From: Haloarcula hispanica ATCC 33960
GTDB lineage: Archaea; Halobacteriota; Halobacteria; Halobacteriales; Haloarculaceae
Assembly (NCBI RefSeq): GCF_000223905.1
Contig: NC_015948.1
Location: 1,240,001 to 1,304,000 of the forward strand
Length of the DNA: 64,000 bases
Direction of reading: 5' to 3'
Shown here: positions 4,643 through 40,091 of the stretch, piece after piece
Position numbering within the stretch: position 1 is the first letter of the stretch
Layout of the letters: each line of letters starts with the position of its first letter
The notes under the pieces: generated by a model
The model's input: only the letters and a program-made list of their open reading frames with translations
Told to the model about the DNA's origin: nothing
Databases searched by the model: none
Made by a program: the position numbers and the translations under genes

Positions 4643-6325
4643 TTACATCGACGAACCGGGCTGGTACTCGCCGAACACGTCCCGGAGCACGTCACACACC
4701 TCGCCGGTCGTGGCGTACACCTTCACGGCGTCGATGATGTAGGGCATGACGTTCTCGTCGCCCTCGGCGGCCCCCCGGAGCGCGTCGAGTTTCGCCTCGA
4801 CGGCCTCCTCGTCGCGCTCCTCCCGGACGGTAGCCACGTTGTCTTGCTGGGCCTGTTCGACGGCCTCGTCGACCTCTTCGATGTCCTGTTCTCCTTCTTC
4901 TTCGACCTGATACTCGTTGACGCCGACGATGATGCGCTCGCCGGCCTCCTGTTCGCGCTGGCGCTCGAAGGCCACGTCCTGGATCTGGCGCTGGACCCAC
5001 TGCTCCTCGATGGAGCGGCGCATCCCGCCGCGGTCGTCGACCTCCTCGATGAGGTCGCGGGCCTCGGCTTCGAGTTCGTCGGTCAGCGACTCGACGTAGT
5101 AGCTGCCGGCTAACGGGTCGATTGTGTCGGCCGCGCCGGATTCGTGGGCGAGTATTTGCTGGGTCCGCAGCGCAGTCCTGACAGACTGCTCGGTCGGCAG
5201 GCCGATGGCCTCGTCCTTGCCGTTGGTGTGGAGGCTCTGGGTCCCGCCGAGGACCGCCGCGAGTGCCTGGTAGGACACGCGGACGACGTTGTTCTCGATC
5301 TGCTGGGCGGTCAGCGTCGAGCCGGCGGTCTGAGTGTGGAACTTCAGTTGCTTGGACTTGGGGTTCTGGGCGTCGAAGCGCTCGTCCATGATTTTCGCCC
5401 AGAGGCGACGCGCGGCCCGGAACTTCGCCACCTCCTCGAAGATGTTGTTGTAGGAGGCAAAAAAGAACGACAGTTGCGGGGCGAACTCGTCGACATCGAG
5501 GCCGGCCTCGATGGCTGCCTCGACGTACTCGATGCCGTCCCCCAGCGTGAACGCGATTTCCTGAGCAGCCGTCGAGCCGGCCTCGCGGATGTGATACCCC
5601 GAGATGGAGATGGTGTTGAAATTCGGCGTCTCGGCGGCGCAGAACTCGAAGATGTCGGTGATGAGCCGCATCGACGGCTCCGGCGGGTAGATGAACGTGT
5701 TCCGGGCGATGTACTCCTTGAGAACGTCGTTCTGGATGGTCCCGCGGAGTTCCTCGCGGTCGACGCCCTGCTTGTCGCCGACGGCGATGTACATCGCCAG
5801 CAGCACCGACGCGGGGGCGTTGATGGTCATGCTGGTCGACACCTCGTCCAACGGGATGCCGTCGAACACGGTCTCCATGTCGTCCAGCGAGTCGATGGCG
5901 ACGCCGGTTTTGCCGACTTCGCCGGCAGCCATCGCGTGGTCGGAGTCGTAACCCATCTGGGTGGGCAGGTCAAAGGCCATCGAGAGCCCAGTCTGGCCCT
6001 GGTCGAGTAGGTAGTTGAACCGCTCGTTGGTCTCCGTCGCAGTTCCCATCCCGGCGTACTGGCGCATCGTCCAGAGTCGGCCTCGATAGCCGGTCGGATA
6101 CACGCCGCGGGTGTACGGTTCCTGGCCGGGGAAGCCCAGATCCTCTTCGTAGTCGAGATCGGAGATGTCTTCAGGGGTGTACAGACGGTCTACTTCGTGT
6201 CCCTCGGTGTCCGTGGTGAACGTCTCCTTGCGTTCGCCAAAGCGGTCGACGGTGGGCTGGACGTCGTCTTCCTCCCACTGAGCCTTCGACTCCCGTATCT
6301 CTTCCAGCTCGTCGGGGTCAAACAT
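4643..6325 (-). CDS. mcmA1: Methylmalonyl-CoA mutase, large (catalytic) subunit
   Basis: Adenosylcobalamin-dependent isomerase turning (R)-methylmalonyl-CoA into succinyl-CoA. The 560 residues contain only the TIM-barrel catalytic part: [15 protein letters not shown] (CoA and substrate tyrosine region), [26 protein letters not shown] (active-site His), and [15 protein letters not shown]. The cobalamin-binding domain is absent. As in other archaea, it must come from a separate small subunit, which is not in this window. The ATG at 6325 was chosen over one 48 bases upstream because [12 protein letters not shown] is the usual haloarchaeal beginning. It lies just upstream of mce on the same strand. 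It links this part of the window to the methylaspartate operon 41 kb away. Confidence 0.92.
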
Positions 6326-6424
6326 GGACGGATTGTCGGACGGCGGAGGCTTAAGGGTTCTTAAATCCTTCACGGTTTGTAATGCATCCCGTCACGATAC
6401 GGCAGCGCGCTGTTCCGAGGTGGG

Positions 6425-6432
6425 TTTATATC
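6425..6432 (+). promoter_or_regulatory. TATA element of the FKBP isomerase gene
   Basis: TTTATATC lies 26 bases (centre to A of ATG) before the ATG at 6454. This decides the start in favour of MPIEPGDG and a leaderless message, rather than the longer frame that begins at 6382 upstream of the element. Confidence 0.55.
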
Positions 6433-6453
6433 GTCGGTATCTATCGAGGACGT

Positions 6454-6927
6454 ATGCCAATCGAACCGGGAGACGGCGTCACCATCGAGTACGTCGGCCG
6501 CTTCGAGGACGGGAGCGTCTTCGATACGTCACGTCCCGAAGTCGCCAGAGAGCACGGACTCATCGAGGCACAGGGCGTCGAGGCGAGCGAGTACGCACCG
6601 CTTTCCTTCACCGTCGGTGCAGGGGATATCATCGAAGGGATCGACGAGGCCATCGTCGGAATGACTGCGGGTGAGGAGGCCACTGTCACGGTGCCTCCGG
6701 CGAAAGCCTACGGGGAGTTCCAGGCCGACCGCGTCCGCGAGTACGACCCCGAGACGTTCGAGGGTATGGTCGGAAAAGAGCCGGAGGTCGGGCTCCACGT
6801 CGAGGCCGAGAACGGCCTGCACGGGGACGTGACTGCGGTCCGTGACGACGCTGTCGAGGTGGATTTCAACCACGAACTGTCCGGCAAGACGCTCGTGTTC
6901 GATATCGAAGTCGTCGACGTCAGATAA
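6454..6927 (+). CDS. FKBP-type peptidyl-prolyl isomerase (SlyD-like)
   Basis: A cytoplasmic proline isomerase and folding chaperone. The 157 residues show the FKBP start GDGVTIEYVGRFEDGSVFDT, then FTVGAGDIIEGIDEAIVGM. The flap-like insert (residues 82-135, with AKAYGEFQADRVREY) places it with archaeal and SlyD-type FKBPs. The end is ELSGKTLVFDIEVVDVR, the typical closing strand. The start is set by the TATA element just upstream. Neighbours are convergent or divergent single genes, so it probably forms its own unit. Confidence 0.9.
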   Translation: MPIEPGDGVTIEYVGRFEDGSVFDTSRPEVAREHGLIEAQGVEASEYAPLSFTVGAGDIIEGIDEAIVGMTAGEEATVTVPPAKAYGEFQADRVREYDPETFEGMVGKEPEVGLHVEAENGLHGDVTAVRDDAVEVDFNHELSGKTLVFDIEVVDVR

Positions 6928-6946
6928 TCCGTCCGTCGTCGGATAA

Positions 6947-7531
6947 TCAGTCGCCCGTGTCGTACTTGTAGGTCGCTTCGTCGGGATCGATGCCGAAGTC
7001 CTCGGGTCCCTCCTCCGGCTCGGGTTCCTCGGACTCGCCGGCACTGGCCTGCTTGAACCGTTTGCGGAGGTGCCCCGGTACTTCGAAGCGGTCGATGGCC
7101 ACCCGGAGCGGCACCGCGTCGGGCTGGATGTTCTCCTGTTTGGTCGCGAGCCGGTCCCGGAGCCGGTCGGGGAGTTGCGCCGGTTCGATGCGCTCGAAGC
7201 CGAACTGCGAGAGATACTCCGAGGCGTTCGTCAGCGAGTAGACTGTGTCGAACCCCTCGTCGCCCGCGTACTCGACCAGGCGCTCGATGACGTGTGCGCC
7301 GACCCCCTGGTTGCGCCACTCCGGCAGCACGCCGATACTGGTCAGTTCACAGACGGACTCCTCGTCGCCCTTGTGGATACGGATACGGCCGAAGCCCGCC
7401 TTTTCGTGGCTCTCCTCGTCGATAGCGACGACGTAGTCCCGGGATCTGAAAGCCGTCTCGTCCAGCCCCATCTCCTCGATACGGTCGAGCAACCAGACTT
7501 CCTCTCGGTTTTTCGCATCCCGGACGTACAT
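6947..7531 (-). CDS. GNAT family N-acetyltransferase
   Basis: A 194-residue acetyl-CoA-dependent transferase. The core GNAT fold covers residues 1-130: the beta-4 strand CELTSIGVLPEWRNQGVGAH carries the acetyl-CoA pyrophosphate loop (R-N-Q-G-V-G-A). LTNASEYLSQFGFERIE is the late beta-bulge region typical of ArgA-like and YdaF-like enzymes. The last 60 residues form a charged tail rich in Glu and Pro, seen in haloarchaeal members. The substrate is unknown. It stands alone, convergent with the FKBP gene and divergent from the HTH-10 regulator. Confidence 0.85.
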   Translation of the reverse strand: MYVRDAKNREEVWLLDRIEEMGLDETAFRSRDYVVAIDEESHEKAGFGRIRIHKGDEESVCELTSIGVLPEWRNQGVGAHVIERLVEYAGDEGFDTVYSLTNASEYLSQFGFERIEPAQLPDRLRDRLATKQENIQPDAVPLRVAIDRFEVPGHLRKRFKQASAGESEEPEPEEGPEDFGIDPDEATYKYDTGD

Positions 7532-7639
7532 ACTCGAAAGTTAACTGCCGCAGTCAAAAGGGTTTGCGGCGTAACTGGCACGGTCGAGTTACGTAGCGGA
7601 TAGGCAATCACTAAGAGAGTTCAACATGATTGATTACCC

Positions 7640-8344
7640 ATGATCTCGCTCGAGATGGACATGGTCCAGTACGACTGTCCGTATATCGACACAACACGGG
7701 ACTACGAAGTGTCGTTTCTGGCCAAGCAGTGGGATTTCCACCCTGTCGAGCGGGAGTTGGAGACGCGGATCATGGTCAACGGCGCAGACCGGGAGGAACT
7801 GGATCGCGGGCTGAACGCGCTCGAAGCACACGACCACATGGAGTCCTATCAGCTCCTCCGCCGGAAAGGCGACCTGGCGCTCATCCGCTCACGAATCGAC
7901 GAGACGAACGCGATGAGCGTCATCCGCGACCACAGCGGCTACATTACCGGGCCGTTCCGCATCCGGAACGGGTCGGAAATCTGGCACGTCGGCTTCGATA
8001 CCGAACGCGTCGCGGAGGGCACCCTGTCTGAACTGGAGCGGGACAACGACTACACCATCCGGTCCCGCGAATCGGTCGACCTCGAAGACTACTACGACCT
8101 GCTGCAGAACATCGACTCGGCAAAGCGGCTGGTCGATGGCTGCCGGGAGCTGTCGGATGTGGAGCGGGACACGCTGGAGAAAGCCGTCGAGGGCGGCTAC
8201 TTCGACACGCCGCGGGACGCCACCCTGTCGTCGCTCGCCGAGGAGTTCGATGTCTCTAAGATGGCTATCTCGAAGAACCTCCGGCGCAGTCAGCGGAAAA
8301 TCCTCGACCGCGTCACGACGGCGATGAACGACGTGACCGAGTAG
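7640..8344 (+). CDS. HTH-10 (Bat-type) transcriptional regulator
   Basis: A haloarchaeal DNA-binding regulator of 234 residues. The C-terminal HTH_10 domain is clear: LSDVERDTLEKAVEGGYFDTPRD then LAEEFDVSKMAISKNLRRSQRKIL, about residues 165-225. The N-terminal half is the partly conserved sensor-like region found in Bat relatives (residues 1-150). No GAF, PAS or receiver domain is present, so this is the short form. What it senses and controls cannot be read. It lies beside the Liv operon (convergent end to end), but regulators of this class often act on distant genes. Confidence 0.85.
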   Translation: MISLEMDMVQYDCPYIDTTRDYEVSFLAKQWDFHPVERELETRIMVNGADREELDRGLNALEAHDHMESYQLLRRKGDLALIRSRIDETNAMSVIRDHSGYITGPFRIRNGSEIWHVGFDTERVAEGTLSELERDNDYTIRSRESVDLEDYYDLLQNIDSAKRLVDGCRELSDVERDTLEKAVEGGYFDTPRDATLSSLAEEFDVSKMAISKNLRRSQRKILDRVTTAMNDVTE

Positions 8345-8372
8345 GCCACCGATCCGGCGCTCCGGTTTTCTG

Positions 8373-9110
8373 CTACTCCGTACCGCTCCCCTGCATCAAT
8401 TTCTGGATGTCTTCGTCGGCCGCCAACTCCTCCGGGTCGCCGCTGGCGACGATGTCGCCCCGTTCGATGACGTACAGGCGGTCGACGACATCGGGGACGT
8501 GCGTGACGTTGGACTCCGCGATGAGCACCGCGATGTCGCGGTCGTTAATCTCCCGGATGTAGCGTTTGAGGCTCTCGACGACGACCGGGGCTAGCCCCTC
8601 CAGCGGTTCGTCGAGGATGAGCAGGTCGGGCTGAAGCGCTAGCGCCCGGCCAATAGCGACCATCTTTGCCTGGCCGCCACTGAGGTTCTGGACCTTCGCG
8701 TCCCGGCGGTCGTCGAGTTCGGTCAGCACGTCGTAGACGCTCTCGATGACCGCGTCCTCGTCGTCGATACCGCGGGCCTTCCCACTGGTCCAGATGGGGA
8801 GCCGGAAGTTTTCGTCGACAGTCATCCCGGTGAACAGCTTCCGGTCCTCGGGCTGGTAGCCGATGCCCCGCTTGGGAATCAGCTCCGATCGGATGTCGGT
8901 CAGCTCCTCGCCGCGGAACCGGACCGAGCCGCTCCAGACTGGCGTCAGGCCCATGATGCCCCGGAAGGTACTCGTCTTGCCGGCCCCGTTCCGGCCGACG
9001 AGGCCGACCGCCTCGCCGGCGTTTACGTCGAGGTCGACGTCCTCGGTCACCTGAAACCCCTCGACGGCGGCGTTGAGACCGCGGACGGACAGCAGGGCGT
9101 CGCTACTCAT
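8373..9110 (-). CDS. livF: Branched-chain-type ABC transporter ATPase LivF
   Basis: Second ATP-hydrolysing subunit of a Liv-family (HAAT) importer, 245 residues. Walker A is GLVGRNGAGKTST (near residue 37). The signature is NLSGGQAKMVAIGRAL, and Walker B is PDLLILDEPLEGLAP. The EGLAP continuation is typical of LivF. The ATG at 9110 overlaps the end of livG by 8 bases, so the two are translationally linked; a GTG six bases upstream is a weaker option. It is the last gene of the operon. The substrate is probably an amino acid or small carboxylate, judged only from neighbours. Confidence 0.92.
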   Translation of the reverse strand: MSSDALLSVRGLNAAVEGFQVTEDVDLDVNAGEAVGLVGRNGAGKTSTFRGIMGLTPVWSGSVRFRGEELTDIRSELIPKRGIGYQPEDRKLFTGMTVDENFRLPIWTSGKARGIDDEDAVIESVYDVLTELDDRRDAKVQNLSGGQAKMVAIGRALALQPDLLILDEPLEGLAPVVVESLKRYIREINDRDIAVLIAESNVTHVPDVVDRLYVIERGDIVASGDPEELAADEDIQKLMQGSGTE

Positions 9111-32192: not shown

Positions 32193-33921
32193 CGAGGAAC
32201 TCGCGGAGGTCCTCGGCGTCGCGGGTGTTCAGCACGTCGTCCGTCTCGACCCAGCCCCGCCGCGCCGTGTGGACGCCGTAGCGCAGGAGTTCGAGATCGC
32301 GTGGGCTGTGTGCGTCCGTGTTGATGGCGATTGTCGCCCCGGCTTCGAGGGCCTGCTTGACCGCGCCGCCGCCGAGGTCCAACCGGGCGGGGTTGGCGTT
32401 TATCTCCAGCGCTGTGTCGCTGGCAGCGGCGACTTCCGCGAGGCGCTTGATGTCGACGTCCAGCCCCTCACGACGGTTGAGATACCGGCCTGTCGGATGG
32501 CCAATGACGTTCACGTCGGGGTGTTCCGCTGCGGCGACGAGGCGGTCCGTGCCGTCCCCGTCCAGCGCGGCGTGTGGCGAGGCGACGACCACGTCCAGGT
32601 CCGCCAGCAAGTCGTCGGCGACCGAGACGCTGCCGTCCGCGGCGATGTTGGCCTCGACGCCGGTGAACACGTCGATGTCGGCGTCCGCCGCGACCGACTC
32701 GACCTCTACTATCTGCTCGCGGAGTTTCTCGTCCGGGACGCCGACGCCGCCGACCATCCCCGGCCCCGTCGCGTGGTCCGTGACCGCGAGGTAGTCGTGA
32801 CCGAACGCGGCGGCCCCTTCGACCATCTCCGCAATCGTGTTACGGCCGTCCGACCAGTTCGTGTGGGTGTGGATATCGCCGCGGACCTCGCCCTCGGCGA
32901 GGAGGTCCGGGAGCGACCCGTTGGCGGCGGCTTCGACCTCGCCGCGGTTCTCGCGGAGTTCCGGCGGCACCCACTCCATGCCCAGCGCGTCGTACACTGC
33001 GTCCTCGGTTTCGCTGGCCACTAGTTCACCGGCCCGCTGGTCGTCATCCTCAACGCCCTCGACATCGAAGACCCCGTACTCGTTGACCTTCAGATCCCGC
33101 TCGATAGCGCGGTTGCGGACCGCCACGTTGTGGTCCTTGCTGCCGGTGAAATACTGCAGCGCCGCGCCGAACTCCGATGGGTCGACGATCCGCAGGTCGA
33201 CCCGAACGTCGTCCGCGTAGGCGCTCGCTTTCGTCTCGCCGGACTCGATGACCCGGTCGAGTCCCTCCCAGTCGGCGAACCGCTCGACGACGGCCTCGGG
33301 ATCGGTGCTCCCGACGAGCACGTCCACGTCGCCGATGGTCGGTCGCCAGCGACGAATCGATCCACCGAGCGCGCACTCCTCGACGGCGTCGCCGCCGGTC
33401 ATGTACTCTCGAATCCGGTCGCCGTACGGCCGCGCCTCGCCGAGCAGCGACCGCTCGTGGGCCTCGCGGGCGAAGTCGATGTTGTCGAGGATGTTCTGCT
33501 CCGTTTTCGCCCCGAAGCCCGAGACTTCCTGTATCCTGCCGGCTTCGGCAGCCGACTCCAGTTCGTCGAGGGTGGTGATGCCAAGCGCCTCGTACAGCGA
33601 GCCGACGGATTTCGGTCCCACGCCCTCGACCGCCGTGAGAGCATCCATCTCGACTGGGAGTTCCTCGCGGAGTTCGGTTAGCTCCTCGATTTCGCCAGTG
33701 TTGACGTATTCAACGACCTTCGAGGAGATTGCATCGCCGACGGCGTCGATTTCGCCGACGCTGTCTTCCCCCTCCGCGGCGAGGCCCTCAATAGCCCCGG
33801 GGAAGTCCCTGATGTTCTCGGCCGCCCGGCGGTAGGCTCGGGGCTTGTACTCCACCCCTTTCGCGTCCAGCAGGTCGGCAAACTCTTCGAGCAGTGTCGC
33901 GATTTCGTCGTTCCGGCTCAT
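32185..33921 (-). CDS. polX: DNA polymerase X family with C-terminal PHP domain
   Basis: A repair polymerase of 578 residues. Domains in order: N-terminal HhH region (ATLLEEFADLLDAKGVEYK, VEGVGPKSVGSLYEALGI); the nucleotidyltransferase palm with RRWRPTIGDVDVLVGS (two catalytic Asp) and VRVDLRIVD (third Asp); and a PHP phosphoesterase with HTHTNWSDGRN, TDHATGPG and INTDAHSP. The PHP part often gives 3'-5' exonuclease or AP-site processing in this family, so gap filling in base excision repair is likely. The ATG at 33921 was chosen over one 21 bases upstream. Confidence 0.92.
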   Translation of the reverse strand: MSRNDEIATLLEEFADLLDAKGVEYKPRAYRRAAENIRDFPGAIEGLAAEGEDSVGEIDAVGDAISSKVVEYVNTGEIEELTELREELPVEMDALTAVEGVGPKSVGSLYEALGITTLDELESAAEAGRIQEVSGFGAKTEQNILDNIDFAREAHERSLLGEARPYGDRIREYMTGGDAVEECALGGSIRRWRPTIGDVDVLVGSTDPEAVVERFADWEGLDRVIESGETKASAYADDVRVDLRIVDPSEFGAALQYFTGSKDHNVAVRNRAIERDLKVNEYGVFDVEGVEDDDQRAGELVASETEDAVYDALGMEWVPPELRENRGEVEAAANGSLPDLLAEGEVRGDIHTHTNWSDGRNTIAEMVEGAAAFGHDYLAVTDHATGPGMVGGVGVPDEKLREQIVEVESVAADADIDVFTGVEANIAADGSVSVADDLLADLDVVVASPHAALDGDGTDRLVAAAEHPDVNVIGHPTGRYLNRREGLDVDIKRLAEVAAASDTALEINANPARLDLGGGAVKQALEAGATIAINTDAHSPRDLELLRYGVHTARRGWVETDDVLNTRDAEDLREFLDA

Positions 33922-33922
33922 G

Positions 33923-34375
33923 TTAGTAGCTCCGCCCGGCACGACCCGTGCCGGAGTCCGCGTCCTCGTGACCCAGTGCTTTCTGGAGGAACTTCATCCA
34001 GCGCTTCCTGTCGGCCGTCTCCTGGGTCTGCGCTTCCTGTTCGATGTTGGCCGCACCGAGCTGTTCGAGCGCGTTGAGCGCCCGGTCGATACCGATGATG
34101 GCCGTGGCAAGCTCTTCGCCGCGCTCGTAGCTCACTTCGTTGTCCTCGATCCGCTGCTTGCGCTGGAGGCGCTCGCGCCGCAGGTTCTTTTTCGCCTGCT
34201 CGACGCGTTCGCGCTCGCCCCGCGGAATCGTCTCCCGACGCTTGATTTCGAAGACGAACGACTGGAGTTCGATCTCCTCGCCCTGCACGGTGATCTCATC
34301 GGGGATATCCGCACCGACGGTCGCGCTGTCGCGTTCGATGCGCTCCAGCAACTGTTTGCGCTCGAACTCTTTCAC
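33923..34375 (-). CDS. DUF5788 family protein, coiled-coil
   Basis: A 150-residue charged protein made largely of helix, GTG start at 34375. The middle (EIKRRETIPRGERERVEQAK, then LRRERLQRKQRIEDNEVSY) predicts a long coiled coil. The closing part has KRWMKFLQKALGHEDADSG. The family is restricted to haloarchaea and has no known function. It is immediately upstream of polX and may be in the same transcript. The GTG was selected because the upstream extension has basic, proline-rich residues unlike this acidic proteome. Confidence 0.75.
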   Translation of the reverse strand: MKEFERKQLLERIERDSATVGADIPDEITVQGEEIELQSFVFEIKRRETIPRGERERVEQAKKNLRRERLQRKQRIEDNEVSYERGEELATAIIGIDRALNALEQLGAANIEQEAQTQETADRKRWMKFLQKALGHEDADSGTGRAGRSY

Positions 34376-34600
34376 TACCTGAGTGTTAGACCGGGGTGCC
34401 CTTACCCGCTTCGCCCATCGGCTACCAGGGTTTCCACAGCGGTGCCTGCTTCGCACCACCGACTGAGTCCGGTCAGCGCCCTGTTTCAGGCGACTCTCGT
34501 GGGCGGCCCCGACCGATAGAAAACGAAGTCGGCGATATCTTTTTCATGGTTTCTGTCGTTCTCATTGTACGAGAGTAATACCGTCCCCCTCGCTTATTAC

Positions 34601-36685
34601 ATGACTCTAACGTTCGAACCGCTTGACGACCGCCCTGGACTTGCGGTTATTGATCAGATCGAGCGCCAGCGCTACCGGATACACACGCCGACCCCCGTCG
34701 CGCTCCGGGAGGCAGCGACCGACGTGTTTCAGTACCCGGTCGGGGACGCTGTCCGGATCCGAACGCGCGCTATCGAACTGCCGACAGTGGTCATGGTGTA
34801 CGTCCGTGACGATGCCGGCGCGATAGCCGCTGAGGTTGCCCAGTTCGAGTCTGAGACGCTGCCGGCGGATGACTACGTGCTGGACCCGCTGACCCAGATC
34901 AAGACGTATATGCGGGTCGAGGACACCGCGGTAGAGGTCACCGTCGACTCGGACCGGACCCGTATCGAGTTCGACGCTCCGACAGACCTGCTCATCGGCG
35001 CTCGCTCCCAGCACGACCGGCCGGCGGCCACGGTCACGACGACCGAGCAACCGACCGACGTGATGGCCGCGGTCGAGACCTTCGGGTCGGCGCTCAAGGC
35101 CTACGACCCCGAGCGCTCCTACCCGACGCTTCGCGGCCATCCACCGGCGCTTGAGGTCGGAGACAGTCTGGACATCCCGACGGATATCGACAGGCCGGAC
35201 ACTGGTGTCACGCTCGAACTGCCGCCTGACCTCGCTTCGATCTTCGTCGCCGCACCGCTGTCGTACTACCTCGGGGCTTCGCTCGTTCCCGCGTCCGAGC
35301 CGCGGCTCACAACCGACACAGGATTCACGTACTCGCTCGATACCGCACGGGGTTTCGAATCCGAGGTCGGACGCACGCTCAAACGCCTCTTCTTCCTCGA
35401 TTGTGTCACGCGCACCGAGGGATTCCACCAGATCGACTTACACGAGCGAGCGGCCATCGAACCGTACGTCGACCTCAACTTCCAGTCGCTGTATCAGCAG
35501 CCGCTGGCGGAGCAGGTCGCTACCTATCTGCAGGTCCCGTACGACGTCATCGAGGACCACATCCCGAAGTGGCGGTTGACGACGCACATCGACCCGGTGC
35601 CGGCGAACGCGGAACAGCTCCCGTACGTCGTCGACGACCTGGCTATCGTCCGAACGCATCAGCAACAGCGGCTGAATCAGGCGAGCGTTCCGGCGGAGGT
35701 CGAGGCCGAATTCACCCGGGACGACGTCATCACCCGCGCCGCGAGTTCCGACGCTGCGACCGCTCCATCTGAGGCGGACTACGTCGAACCGCAGGCCGAG
35801 GACTCATTGGAACAGGCCTGGATCGGGGACAGTATCCCGATCGGTGCGAGCAAGCTGACCAAAGCGGCGTTCGAACACCGACTCGACCGCGACACGAACG
35901 CCGAGGACATCACGATTCGCGTCGTCCAGAACGACGCCCGCATGGACGAGGAACGGCAGGTCGTCGACGACGTGTACGGCACCCGCGACGACTTGCCGTT
36001 CGATGTCACAGTCCACGACGACCTGACGACGGCGGAGCTCAGGACCGTTCTCACGACCGACGCGGAGTTCTTCCACTACATCGGCCACACCGAACACGAC
36101 GGCTTCGTCTGCCGCGATGGCAAGCTCGACGTGACGACAGTCGACTCTGTAGGGGTCGATACGTTCCTGCTGAACGCCTGCAACTCCTACAACCAGGGGT
36201 TAGCGCTCGTCGAAAAGGGTGCAATCGCTGGCATCGTCACGCTTAACGAAGTGCTGAACGACGGCGCGGTTCGCATCGGTGAAACGGTCGCTAGGCTGTT
36301 GAACTGCGGCTTCCCTCTTCGAGCCGCGCTTACTATCGCACGCGGTGAGAGTATTCTCGGTGGGCAGTATATCGTGGTTGGTGATGGTGGTGTTACTGTC
36401 ACGCAGTCAGAAGGAGGAACGCCAAATATGCTTGAAATAGCACCTAATGAGACAGGATTCAAATTATTCATGAATATGTATCCGACAGACATCGACGGGT
36501 TGGGAAGTATTACTATGCCTTTAGTAGAAGATTATTCATATCACCACCTGTCATCTGGCGAGATTGGTCCACTGTTGCTTGAGAGACCAGAACTGGAAGA
36601 TTTCCTTCTAGCGCAAGAAGTTCCAGTGCAGTTCGGAGAGGAACTGTATTGGAGTACGTCTCTTGATTTAAGCGAAGCTACCTAA
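34601..36685 (+). CDS. CHAT-domain (caspase-like) protein
   Basis: A 694-residue protein with a C-terminal caspase-family CHAT domain. The catalytic pair is visible: His496 in FFHYIGHTEHDG and Cys527 in FLLNACNSYNQG. These are followed by the CHAT-typical ALVEKGAIAGIVTLNEV and ARLLNCGFPLRAALTIARGE. The first 450 or so residues are acidic with no recognised domain (DLASIFVAAPLSYYLGAS in the middle); they may sense or bind the target. The final 108 residues, after about residue 586, are encoded by much more AT-rich DNA than the rest. CHAT peptidases elsewhere act with partner proteins in defence or regulated death; that role here is inference. The ATG at 34601 lies about 26 bases after an AT-rich element. 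Confidence 0.8.
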   Translation: MTLTFEPLDDRPGLAVIDQIERQRYRIHTPTPVALREAATDVFQYPVGDAVRIRTRAIELPTVVMVYVRDDAGAIAAEVAQFESETLPADDYVLDPLTQIKTYMRVEDTAVEVTVDSDRTRIEFDAPTDLLIGARSQHDRPAATVTTTEQPTDVMAAVETFGSALKAYDPERSYPTLRGHPPALEVGDSLDIPTDIDRPDTGVTLELPPDLASIFVAAPLSYYLGASLVPASEPRLTTDTGFTYSLDTARGFESEVGRTLKRLFFLDCVTRTEGFHQIDLHERAAIEPYVDLNFQSLYQQPLAEQVATYLQVPYDVIEDHIPKWRLTTHIDPVPANAEQLPYVVDDLAIVRTHQQQRLNQASVPAEVEAEFTRDDVITRAASSDAATAPSEADYVEPQAEDSLEQAWIGDSIPIGASKLTKAAFEHRLDRDTNAEDITIRVVQNDARMDEERQVVDDVYGTRDDLPFDVTVHDDLTTAELRTVLTTDAEFFHYIGHTEHDGFVCRDGKLDVTTVDSVGVDTFLLNACNSYNQGLALVEKGAIAGIVTLNEVLNDGAVRIGETVARLLNCGFPLRAALTIARGESILGGQYIVVGDGGVTVTQSEGGTPNMLEIAPNETGFKLFMNMYPTDIDGLGSITMPLVEDYSYHHLSSGEIGPLLLERPELEDFLLAQEVPVQFGEELYWSTSLDLSEAT

Positions 36686-36750
36686 AGAAGTATCACATTC
36701 CAGTATTGAATCTGGCGTAATAAGCTGATAAGCGCCTGTAATCTCCGGAA

Positions 36751-36885
36751 TCAGGGACCGATATATGAACTATTGTTTGCAGCTGCTGCAGTCCCTGCCT
36801 GTGACAGTAGCATCAGGAGGGTGAACAGTGCGCCGGCCATTTTCGGGTGCTCTGCGAGGTATTCGCGCATGGTAGTATCGGACAT
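36751..36885 (-). CDS. Small membrane-type protein (44 residues), DUF7503-like
   Basis: A short gene facing the CHAT gene end to end, 65 bases away. The product starts MSDTTMREYLAEHPKMAGAL, goes into a hydrophobic run (LFTLLMLLSQAGTAAAA) and ends in NNSSYIGP. I recognise the pattern REYLAEHP...LFTLLLLL.QAG...GP from small haloarchaeal proteins often called DUF7503. It resembles a signal peptide or single membrane anchor with almost nothing after it. The AT-rich region upstream has a TATA-like element within an inverted repeat. Function unknown. Confidence 0.65.
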   Translation of the reverse strand: MSDTTMREYLAEHPKMAGALFTLLMLLSQAGTAAAANNSSYIGP

Positions 36886-37297
36886 GATACGATTTTGATG
36901 TAGGTCGGGAAATAATTAAATTTATCTGAAGTGTACCTACATATTATATATTGTATTAAGTATAGAATTAAAAGATAAATCCACAAATCAACACAGACAG
37001 CACTTATATCTCCCGTCTAGCGATCAAATAACACGAACGGGTCGAACGTTCTCAAGAAGGCCCACAGCGATACACCCCATCAGTAGCGTTTAGTAGACTG
37101 GTATGTAACTACGGCCAGGATTAGGTATTGATGCCTAGATGGAACTCGCCTGACTATTATTTGAAATATATACGTCCTGCTGGCTCGCTTCGGGGACCAG
37201 ACGTGGTGGGATCGGGGTCTAGAACAATCACTACCAGCCTGACTGGATGGCTGATTGCGTTCGTCTTCTGTAGTATCGACAGCACCGGGGAAAAAAG
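36886..37297. other. AT-rich gene-free stretch of 412 bases
   Basis: Lies between the divergent starts of the 44-residue protein and the receiver-PAS gene. The left 130 bases are very AT-rich and contain the inverted repeat described separately. The right part is ordinary in composition. No coding frame, tRNA or direct repeat stands out. Confidence 0.5.
36898..36942. promoter_or_regulatory. Inverted repeat flanking the promoter of the 44-residue gene
   Basis: ATGTAGGT at 36898-36905 and its exact complement ACCTACAT at 36935-36942 enclose 29 AT-rich bases (AATAATTAAATTTAT inside) that probably hold the TATA box. The start codon at 36885 is 13 bases from the nearer arm. A regulator bound to both arms would cover the promoter. 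Confidence 0.5.
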
Positions 37298-38328: not shown

Positions 38329-39267
38329 ATGTCGGAGTGCGATGCCTGTGGAAAGCAGGAGAACATGCCGTACCAGTGTGGGCACTGTGGCGGGACCTAC
38401 TGTGCGGAACACAGACTGCCCGAGGCCCACGATTGCCCCGGACTGGATAACTGGAGCGATCCGGGCGGCGTGTTCGACAGCGGGTTCGACGAGAGTGTAA
38501 ACACTGGCCAGACCTCCGGGGGCGGCGGCGTCGCCGACCGGCTCGGTATCGACACCGGACCCGGCGGGCCGCTGGCGTACTTCCGGGGGAACGTCACGTA
38601 CCTGTTCCTGGCGATCATGGGGATCGTCTTTGTTTTACAACACGTCGTAACGCTCGCGCTTGGCGAGCAGGTCCACCAGGCGTTGTTCGTCCTCCACCCG
38701 AACAACCCTGAGTACGTCTGGACCTGGTTTACATCAATATTCTCTCATGCACGATGGGGCCTGTTCCATATCTTCGGAAACGGGATTATCATCTACTTCT
38801 TCGGCCGACTCGTCGAACAGCAGATCGGATCGAAGAAGTTTGCGATCTTCTTCCTCGTATCCGGCGCGCTGGCGGGCCTCGGTCAGGTCGGCCTCCAGAT
38901 GTTCCTGAGCGGCCCCGCTTACGGCGTCCTCGGGGCCAGCGGCGCTGCACTGGCTATCATGGCATTCCTGACTGTCTTGAAACCGGACCTACGCGTCTAC
39001 CTGTACTTCCTGATCCCGGTTCCAATCTGGGCCATCACCGCCTTCTACTTCCTGTTGAGCATCGCCGGGACGTTCAGCATGCAGGGGGCCGGGCTGCTCG
39101 GCGGCAACATCGCCCACCTCGCCCACCTCATCGGCCTCGTCATCGGCCTCTGGTACGGCCAGAAAATCAAGGGGCAGACCCGGATGCCCGGCCAGATACA
39201 GTTCGGCGGTGGCGGCGGCCCCGGTGGACCGGGCGGTCCCGGTGGTCCGGGCCGGCGTCGTCCGTGA
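38329..39267 (+). CDS. Rhomboid intramembrane serine protease with AN1 zinc finger
   Basis: Cleaves membrane proteins within or next to the bilayer, 312 residues. The N-terminus is an AN1-type zinc finger (CDACGKQENMPYQCGHCGGT, then YCAEHRLPEAHDCPG), residues 4-40. Six membrane helices start near residue 90. The catalytic Ser204 is in GVLGASGAALA and the His266 in AHLIGLVIG. The tail is Gly/Pro-rich with basic end. AN1-rhomboid fusions are known in haloarchaea. Endonuclease V starts two bases after the stop, so they share a transcript. Confidence 0.9.
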   Translation: MSECDACGKQENMPYQCGHCGGTYCAEHRLPEAHDCPGLDNWSDPGGVFDSGFDESVNTGQTSGGGGVADRLGIDTGPGGPLAYFRGNVTYLFLAIMGIVFVLQHVVTLALGEQVHQALFVLHPNNPEYVWTWFTSIFSHARWGLFHIFGNGIIIYFFGRLVEQQIGSKKFAIFFLVSGALAGLGQVGLQMFLSGPAYGVLGASGAALAIMAFLTVLKPDLRVYLYFLIPVPIWAITAFYFLLSIAGTFSMQGAGLLGGNIAHLAHLIGLVIGLWYGQKIKGQTRMPGQIQFGGGGGPGGPGGPGGPGRRRP

Positions 39268-39269
39268 CG

Positions 39270-40091
39270 ATGGACCCAGTTCGCCCCGATTTCATCCCCG
39301 ACCCGTCGCTATCTCAGGCGGAGATGGAGGCGCTGCAACGCGACATTGCCGAGGTCGCGCGGTTCGAGGACGACCTGGATGTCTCGCCAGCGGCCATCGC
39401 GTCCGCTGGGGATGCACCGGACGACGACCAGACGACGCTGAGCGCCAGCACCGACGACACAACGAACCCGCCGCTCGTCGCCGGCGTCGACCAGGCGTTC
39501 GTCGACGACAGAGCCGTCTCGGCTATCGTCGTACTACGGAACGGCGAGGTCATCGAGCGGGTCAGCGCCGTCGAGCGAACCGAGATTCCATACATTCCCG
39601 GCCTGCTGTCGTTCCGCGAAGGCGGCGCAATCCTGGCCGCGTTCGCGGAGTTGGAGGCCGACCCGGACGTGGTACTCGTCGACGGCAGCGGTCGAATCCA
39701 CTTTCGGGAGGCCGGCCTGGCGACACACATCGGCATCACACTGGACGTACCGACCGTCGGTGTCGCCAAGAGCCTCCTCTGTGGCGCGCCGGAGCAGTCC
39801 CTCGACGAGACGTACCCGGAAGGGACGCGGATTCCGATTGCAGCCGACGACAGCGTCGAGACCTGTCCCGACGGGACGGTCATCGGCCACGCACTCCAGA
39901 CGCGGCAGTACGACTCGCCGAACCGGTATATCAATCCACTTATCGTCAGCCCCGGCCATCGCGTCAGCGCAAGTACGGCGGCGGACATCGTCGAAGCCAC
40001 CGCCGACGGCTACAAGCTCCCCGAGCCGACCCGGGTGGCCGACAGCTACGCCGACGAGGCAAAGGCAGCCGTGAATAATCCGTCCGAATAA
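39270..40091 (+). CDS. nfi: Endonuclease V
   Basis: A DNA repair endonuclease that nicks next to deaminated adenine (inosine), 273 residues. Conserved blocks: LVAGVDQAFVDDR (metal Asp), ERTEIPYIPGLLSFREGGAI (Glu in FRE), VVLVDGSGRIHFREAGLATH (metal Asp) and VGVAKSLLCG. The YIPG motif inserts into the minor groove beside the lesion. It starts two bases after the rhomboid gene. The N-terminal 65 residues are a Ser/Asp-rich extension longer than in bacterial enzymes. The ATG at 39270 fits this junction. Confidence 0.9.
   Translation: MDPVRPDFIPDPSLSQAEMEALQRDIAEVARFEDDLDVSPAAIASAGDAPDDDQTTLSASTDDTTNPPLVAGVDQAFVDDRAVSAIVVLRNGEVIERVSAVERTEIPYIPGLLSFREGGAILAAFAELEADPDVVLVDGSGRIHFREAGLATHIGITLDVPTVGVAKSLLCGAPEQSLDETYPEGTRIPIAADDSVETCPDGTVIGHALQTRQYDSPNRYINPLIVSPGHRVSASTAADIVEATADGYKLPEPTRVADSYADEAKAAVNNPSE

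Follow-up and report, generated by a model that had tools for sequence, protein, structure and literature searches.

Separase and TPR-CHAT act on dedicated partner proteins, and proteases release pore-forming parts from gasdermins. PlcR-PapR, Rgg-SHP, and AimR-AimP are, besides Rap-Phr, members of the RRNPP class, and agr pherotype loci are likened to comQXP in their layout. In comQXP, the hypervariable stretch comprises the signal peptide and the recognizing part of the adjacent receptor gene, according to the relevant part of PMC6334282. RRNPP systems consist of two adjacent genes, one for a short propeptide with an export leader and a variable C-terminal peptide and one for an intracellular receptor (excerpts of PMC10075063; Rap-Phr is described likewise in part of PMC6334282). 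For Haloferax volcanii, passages of PMC3615174 describe strong caspase-like activity, though archaeal genomes are said there to be without clear homologues. Here, we report a convergent gene pair, encoding a CHAT-like protease (P0002) and a 44-amino-acid (aa) DUF7503 protein, in 64,000 nucleotides of Haloarcula hispanica ATCC 33960 (the window). Its features are given in Table 1.

Table 1. Features of the convergent gene pair, in positions of the window
Feature	Position(s)	Strand	Basis
CHAT (caspase-like, clan CD) protease P0002	34565..36685	+	Weak Pfam match, predicted model, fold matches
Alternative start of P0002, ATG	34601	+	
Conserved His, H508, presumed catalytic	36086..36088	+	106/106 paired rows
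Conserved Cys, C539, presumed catalytic	36179..36181	+	106/106 paired rows
Hypervariable CHAT C-terminal domain, proposed tail-recognition domain	36390..36685	+	pN, covariation, identity, paralogue contrast
Hypervariable cassette, both converging 3' ends	36390..36785	.	Sliding identity; topology tests on CHAT part
Variable C-terminal tail, ANNSSYIGP	36754..36780	-	Alignment; pN/pS
DUF7503 mini-gene, 44 aa	36751..36885	-	ATG start; Pfam match
Conserved leader, residues 1 to 35, signal-peptide-like, ends AxA	36781..36885	-	pN, 0.011 (13 close loci)
Conserved promoter block with TATA-like stretch	36911..36962	-	Upstream alignment of 14 loci

The DUF7503 mini-gene and the CHAT-like protease

A preliminary description of this DNA had proposed a 44-residue open reading frame (ORF) opposite the CHAT gene, convergent with it at a distance of 65 bases, and this was borne out. 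The predicted product, MSDTTMREYLAEHPKMAGALFTLLMLLSQAGTAAAANNSSYIGP, is a full-length member of DUF7503 (PF24335; 78.6 bits against a cut-off of 27; span, residues 1 to 42), and 65 bases separate its stop from that of P0002. By sequence measures, the ORF is a gene rather than a chance reading frame, because of the DUF7503 score, the mainly synonymous change in the leader codons (pS, 0.191; pN, 0.011; 13 loci chosen by CHAT core identity), and the conserved upstream block with its TATA-like stretch (identity, 0.866 versus 0.53 to 0.73 beyond position 36990; 14 close Haloarcula loci). DUF7503 is an already known Pfam family, listed as of unknown function; literature searches for the term DUF7503 and for the CHAT domain together with haloarchaea found no paper in the library used. 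The further claim that normal gene finding had missed the gene held at one locus (L200), where the gene is present and has no listing, an absence on which the incompleteness of the PLSDB gene table bears, but failed at another (L201), where a 49-aa hypothetical protein is annotated.

Two side observations concern the same stretch. The highly conserved upstream block (∼50 bases; 14 loci) exceeds the needs of a TATA box and is a possible regulator site. Synonymous change in the leader was low (pS by step, 0.10 to 0.29 versus 0.28 to 0.48 in the CHAT core), which hints at an extra RNA or DNA constraint.

P0002 (706 residues) matched the Pfam CHAT profile (PF12770) at 14.5 bits, below the cut-off of 24; the label CHAT-like therefore refers to its fold and dyad rather than to this profile. 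At E values up to 1, the Pfam search returned CHAT alone, with no TPR, SAVED, or kinase domain. The AlphaFold model was confident (pLDDT, 90.7). Foldseek matched it to separase and SAVED-CHAT (E, ∼1e-7), the matched region covering only part of the model (TM by query, 0.20 to 0.28), and fold comparison gave Z scores of 20.9 for gingipain R, 18.7 for SAVED-CHAT, 18.5 for separase, and 11.6 to 14.2 for Craspase, with legumain also among the caspase-like matches. The predicted structure thus has a caspase-like clan CD fold. Searches of P0002 against the sequences of solved structures and against phage records gave no match, and the PADLOC defence models returned no family for P0001 or P0002 at E values up to 1. 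Folded alone, the CHAT C-terminal domain gave a weak model (pLDDT, 71.8). Among the matches listed for the named collection, the CHAT loci most similar to this one came from Haloarcula species.

Pairing and anatomy of the small protein

We retrieved 152 distinct DUF7503 sites (chosen as best, weakest, and multicopy sites, not at random), and 147 of them had a convergent CHAT match within 400 bases, with a median stop-to-stop distance of 3 bases; four of the 147 matches were short pieces, one of them near a contig end. This strongly supports the pairing with the CHAT gene, which had been inferred from the single locus, and the pattern named at that time as speaking against it, homologues occurring widely with no CHAT gene nearby, was looked for and not found at these sites. 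Of the five remaining sites, three are copies of a short repeat within a single genome and two belong to a second genome; a match below the DUF7503 cut-off (G157:C10) was unmatched by a purpose-built profile. Both genes, convergent and adjoining, occurred in 24 of 32 Haloarcula genomes (the CHAT gene as a close orthologue) and neither in 8, of which 3 are only 58 to 80% complete. Across the order, DUF7503 was present in 204 of 243 genomes and a P0002 relative (E, 1e-5) in 219 of 243.

From the CHAT side, 80 named loci were kept out of 529 passing candidates, and 78 were testable, two being cut by a contig end. A partner or a tail-bearing substitute was present at 76 of the 78, and 69 of the 80 had a DUF7503 match. 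One partner was partly unreadable, with a fitting visible end (L222); two were diverged and ended in PGP or NGP (L272 and L280); and four were of another kind, still ending in SGP (L219, L238, L241, and L247). The exceptions were L208, with a small gene 1.4 kb away, and L271, with none seen. Pairing was kept across families and on plasmids, three annotated plasmid loci carrying the convergent pair.

Several loci departed from the single-pair layout. Two DUF7503 genes stand in a row at L150 (G142:C1:2090000-2101000; 5563 to 8871), the first facing a truncated CHAT (∼235 residues) and the second a full one, which could be a spare cassette, and a second DUF7503 lies beside a broken CHAT at the start of contig G013:C1. 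In L120 to L122 (G204; five similar sites listed), a DUF7503-like ORF lies inside a 171- to 196-bp repeat with unlike flanks and no CHAT, which looks like a small mobile repeat.

The anatomy of the small protein was taken from an alignment of 140 unique DUF7503 sequences. The leader follows the pattern [YF]LxxHP[RK]MxGxLFT..LLL[ST]QxG; it is followed by AxA and then, in 136 of 140, by 7 to 9 residues to the C terminus. The tail ends in Gly-Pro in 121 sequences and without it in 19. The REYLAEHP front of the preliminary description is thus conserved, but as the genus version of a general [YF]LxxHP[RK]MxGxLF, and the conserved end that it had noted is present as Gly-Pro, not as IGP. The signal peptidase (-3,-1) rule held in 137 of 140 (132 under a stricter form), and in 138 of the 140 the hydrophobic segment was directly preceded by Arg or Lys, so that the positive-inside rule predicts a tail outside the membrane. 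The leader suggests predicted secretion.

Some partners have another build. In Haloplanus ruber (L238:7070-7714, minus strand; same site as L141), the convergent CHAT partner is a run of 13 tandem tail units (TADGNSGGISGP[Y/F/S] type), the copies of which differ at many silent positions, and a Haloplanus metagenome-assembled genome (MAG) has a partner of two tandem tail units. Neither of these (L219 and L238) nor the partner at L157 has a hydrophobic segment, and the Halococcus partners (L241 and L247) end in ACTYSGP, with a moderate hydrophobic stretch and no DUF7503 match. Across these alignments, the constant companion of CHAT is the tail, more than the hydrophobic segment. We read the tail as the probable functional part because it covaries with the CHAT C terminus within genera (see below) and is kept in partners without the segment; the view of the protein as almost only a hydrophobic anchor therefore gives way to one centered on its variable end. 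Since leaderless partners exist, secretion would not be obligatory, if they work in the same way.

The leaderless, segmentless partners of Haloplanus and L157, and the resemblance of the CHAT fold to separase and TPR-CHAT, would suit an intracellular arrangement, in which the unsecreted small protein either anchors CHAT at the membrane or serves it as a dedicated inhibitor or substrate, and in which CHAT binds or cuts the tail. Substrate, sensor, and inhibitor of the peptidase, the roles that the preliminary description had suggested, are all putative. We consider this rather unlikely, as the basic residue before the hydrophobic segment predicts an outside tail, the AxA motif obeys the signal peptidase rule almost throughout, and a pseudosubstrate of a conserved active site would be expected to vary less. 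Very improbable is a gasdermin-like effector, whereby CHAT would cleave the small protein to free a pore-forming or depolarizing helix; the conserved hydrophobic segment and the caspase-like partner agree with it, but the variability sits in the tail, not in the helix, and some partners have no hydrophobic segment.

Other neighbors were considered. DUF7504, with or without HalOD1, occurred at 41 loci among the 106 sites clustered, none of them in Haloarcula, usually on the 5' side of CHAT and in the same orientation. It was left out of the core pair, being common elsewhere (3 to 11 copies per Haloarcula genome) and without a significant match in the window. DUF7504 is a possible further partner where it stands immediately 5' of CHAT, in some cases as a fusion with HalOD1 (L022, L057, L138, L190, and others). 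A 224-aa ORF (33845 to 34519) was dropped as a gene, having no Pfam match and partly overlapping PolX on the other strand. An AN1 zinc finger-rhomboid gene overlaps the ORF after it, which encodes an endonuclease V domain (38329 to 40091). The rhomboid (38329 to 39267) was considered as the processing protease and set aside; a matching cluster occurred in six loci, all from Haloarcula, and there was no evidence for such a role.

Hypervariable cassette in Haloarcula

Among 14 close Haloarcula loci, picked by the first 16 leader residues (a choice favoring a conserved leader), a cassette of ∼400 bp, which includes the C-terminal ∼95 residues of CHAT and the tail of the peptide, was hypervariable; the outcome was unchanged with 13 loci selected on CHAT core identity. 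In steps of 60 bases, DNA identity in the 14 loci was 0.82 to 0.92 in the CHAT core, 0.30 to 0.63 in 36390 to 36749, 0.77 in the step that combines the tail with some of the leader, and 0.96 in the leader itself, and was again low (0.53 to 0.73) in the outer intergenic DNA. Leader and tail differed in pN (0.014 versus 0.196 in 14 loci; 0.011 versus 0.197 in 13 loci), also across 23 Haloarcula loci (0.094 versus 0.322; L176 left out, its start being outside the search pattern), where the leader was less frozen. In the 14 loci, pN of the last ∼100 CHAT residues was 0.31 to 0.34, versus 0.02 to 0.09 in the rest, and synonymous change in the CHAT C terminus was also raised (0.72 to 0.78 versus 0.28 to 0.48), so that old or imported alleles, not faster amino acid change alone, would explain much of the divergence. 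The tail omega was ∼0.2, and diversifying selection is thus not indicated.

Trees of the CHAT core and of the CHAT part of the cassette rejected each other (AU, 1.8e-26 and 7e-124), and the leader and promoter followed the core tree, the inner nodes of which are weakly supported. On these topologies, the cassette has its own history, apart from that of the CHAT core. A distant CHAT paralogue (32 to 39% identity) is found elsewhere in 31 of 32 Haloarcula genomes, with no DUF7503 beside it at the six copies inspected. This unpaired paralogue ends in a homologous C-terminal domain that, in the genomes of the 14 close loci, was not hypervariable (pN, 0.051 versus 0.065 in its core); hypervariability thus goes with the partner, as judged from paired versus unpaired CHAT. 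A linked hypervariable cassette also fits a toxin-immunity pair, with a secreted peptide as the toxin and allele-specific immunity residing in the C-terminal domain of CHAT. We find this reading scarcely credible, since it would join immunity to a protease whose dyad is invariant and the peptide would have only 7 to 9 residues.

Tail similarity correlated with DNA similarity only in the cassette steps (0.46 to 0.64, partly circular in step 36750 to 36809, which includes the tail itself; elsewhere, -0.28 to 0.18). Loci with the same tail (6 pairs) had CHAT C termini 0.79 identical and cores 0.94 identical, versus 0.47 and 0.91 for those with different tails (84 pairs). The partial correlation of tail and C terminus, given the core, was 0.63 in the 14 loci (0 of 5,000 shuffles as high) and 0.66 in the 13 core-chosen loci (0 of 2,000), with shuffles that ignore relatedness. 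Four other clusters (Haloferax, two Halorussus-type groups, and Haladaptatus; 26 loci) gave 0.24 to 0.71 individually and 0.46 pooled (0 of 1,000 shuffles as high, relatedness ignored), versus 0.13 for two control regions. When all 23 Haloarcula loci were taken together, tail and C terminus correlated at 0.47 given the core, and tail and core at 0.54 given the C terminus. Across the order, co-specificity found no support: 160 pairs (CHAT copies below ∼600 codons or with internal stops or X dropped) had no excess correlation of tail and CHAT C terminus (partial r, -0.14), and the best window lay elsewhere (0.32; alignment columns 340 to 380).

Linkage alone could produce the within-genus covariation. 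With this, shuffles that ignore relatedness, and a tail omega of ∼0.2, recognition of the tail by CHAT is something that we infer. Possible linkage, the raised synonymous change in the cassette, and the lack of an order-level signal are what speak for the pair having no partner function, its converging 3' ends being a recombination hotspot or under relaxed constraint. This is improbable in view of the conserved C-terminal domain of the unpaired paralogue, the low tail omega, the kept Gly-Pro, and the persistence of pairing across families and plasmids.

Proposed mechanism and known systems

We propose, with a probability of roughly 0.55, that the two genes form a polymorphic ligand-receptor pair, in which the tail, as cognate ligand of the C-terminal domain of CHAT, would gate the protease. 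The proposal comes from the resemblance of the jointly hypervariable adjacent ends to the comQXP pherotype layout. DUF7503 would be a pre-peptide, its conserved leader carrying the peptide to or through the membrane, and its last 7 to 9 residues, mostly ending in Gly-Pro, would be the specific ligand. The CHAT C-terminal ∼95 residues would recognize the cognate tail and switch the protease on or off, and the matched cassette would be exchanged as one unit by recombination between conserved flanks. The convergent order would make sense because it brings the two specificity-determining 3' ends to adjoin. Pairing, the conserved dyad, a bounded cassette, its separate history, and within-genus covariation of tail and C terminus are what the alignments themselves contain; binding, gating, secretion, and the sign and targets of the response we infer. 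A more specific version is tentative, namely, an archaeal peptide pheromone with allelic pherotypes, an octa- or nonapeptide ending in Gly-Pro that cells would secrete and take up and that a caspase-like protease would read. If true, kin density or kin identity would control proteolysis and perhaps cell death or differentiation. If instead the small protein is an intracellular substrate, the pair would belong among the CHAT-with-partner systems.

A hypervariable block spans both gene ends here and would correspond to that of comQXP and agr if these ends are a signal and a sensor. The putative receptor differs in being a CHAT protease, with no kinase domain found by Pfam, and not a membrane histidine kinase; moreover, the Haloarcula cassette has no processing enzyme gene, the genes are convergent, and the host is archaeal. 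A putative propeptide gene adjoins CHAT, as presumptive receptor, at nearly all DUF7503 sites (147/152), which would match the RRNPP layout, and the leader obeys the (-3,-1) rule (137/140), yet some partners are leaderless. Unlike RRNPP, the partner is caspase-like, with no TPR domain found by Pfam (E up to 1), and the pair is convergent and archaeal. P0002 shares the clan CD peptidase fold of its predicted model and the conserved His and Cys with separase, TPR-CHAT (Craspase), and SAVED-CHAT, but has no TPR or SAVED part (Pfam), and its partner is a tiny variable pre-peptide. The P0002-type CHAT family is a candidate source of haloarchaeal caspase-like activity, and the locus, with alleles that can be swapped, offers a concrete system in which to study the control of such a protease in archaea. 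A caspase-like protease combined with a hypervariable pre-peptide was found in none of the known systems compared here, and the pair may be a peptide-controlled protease switch in archaea.
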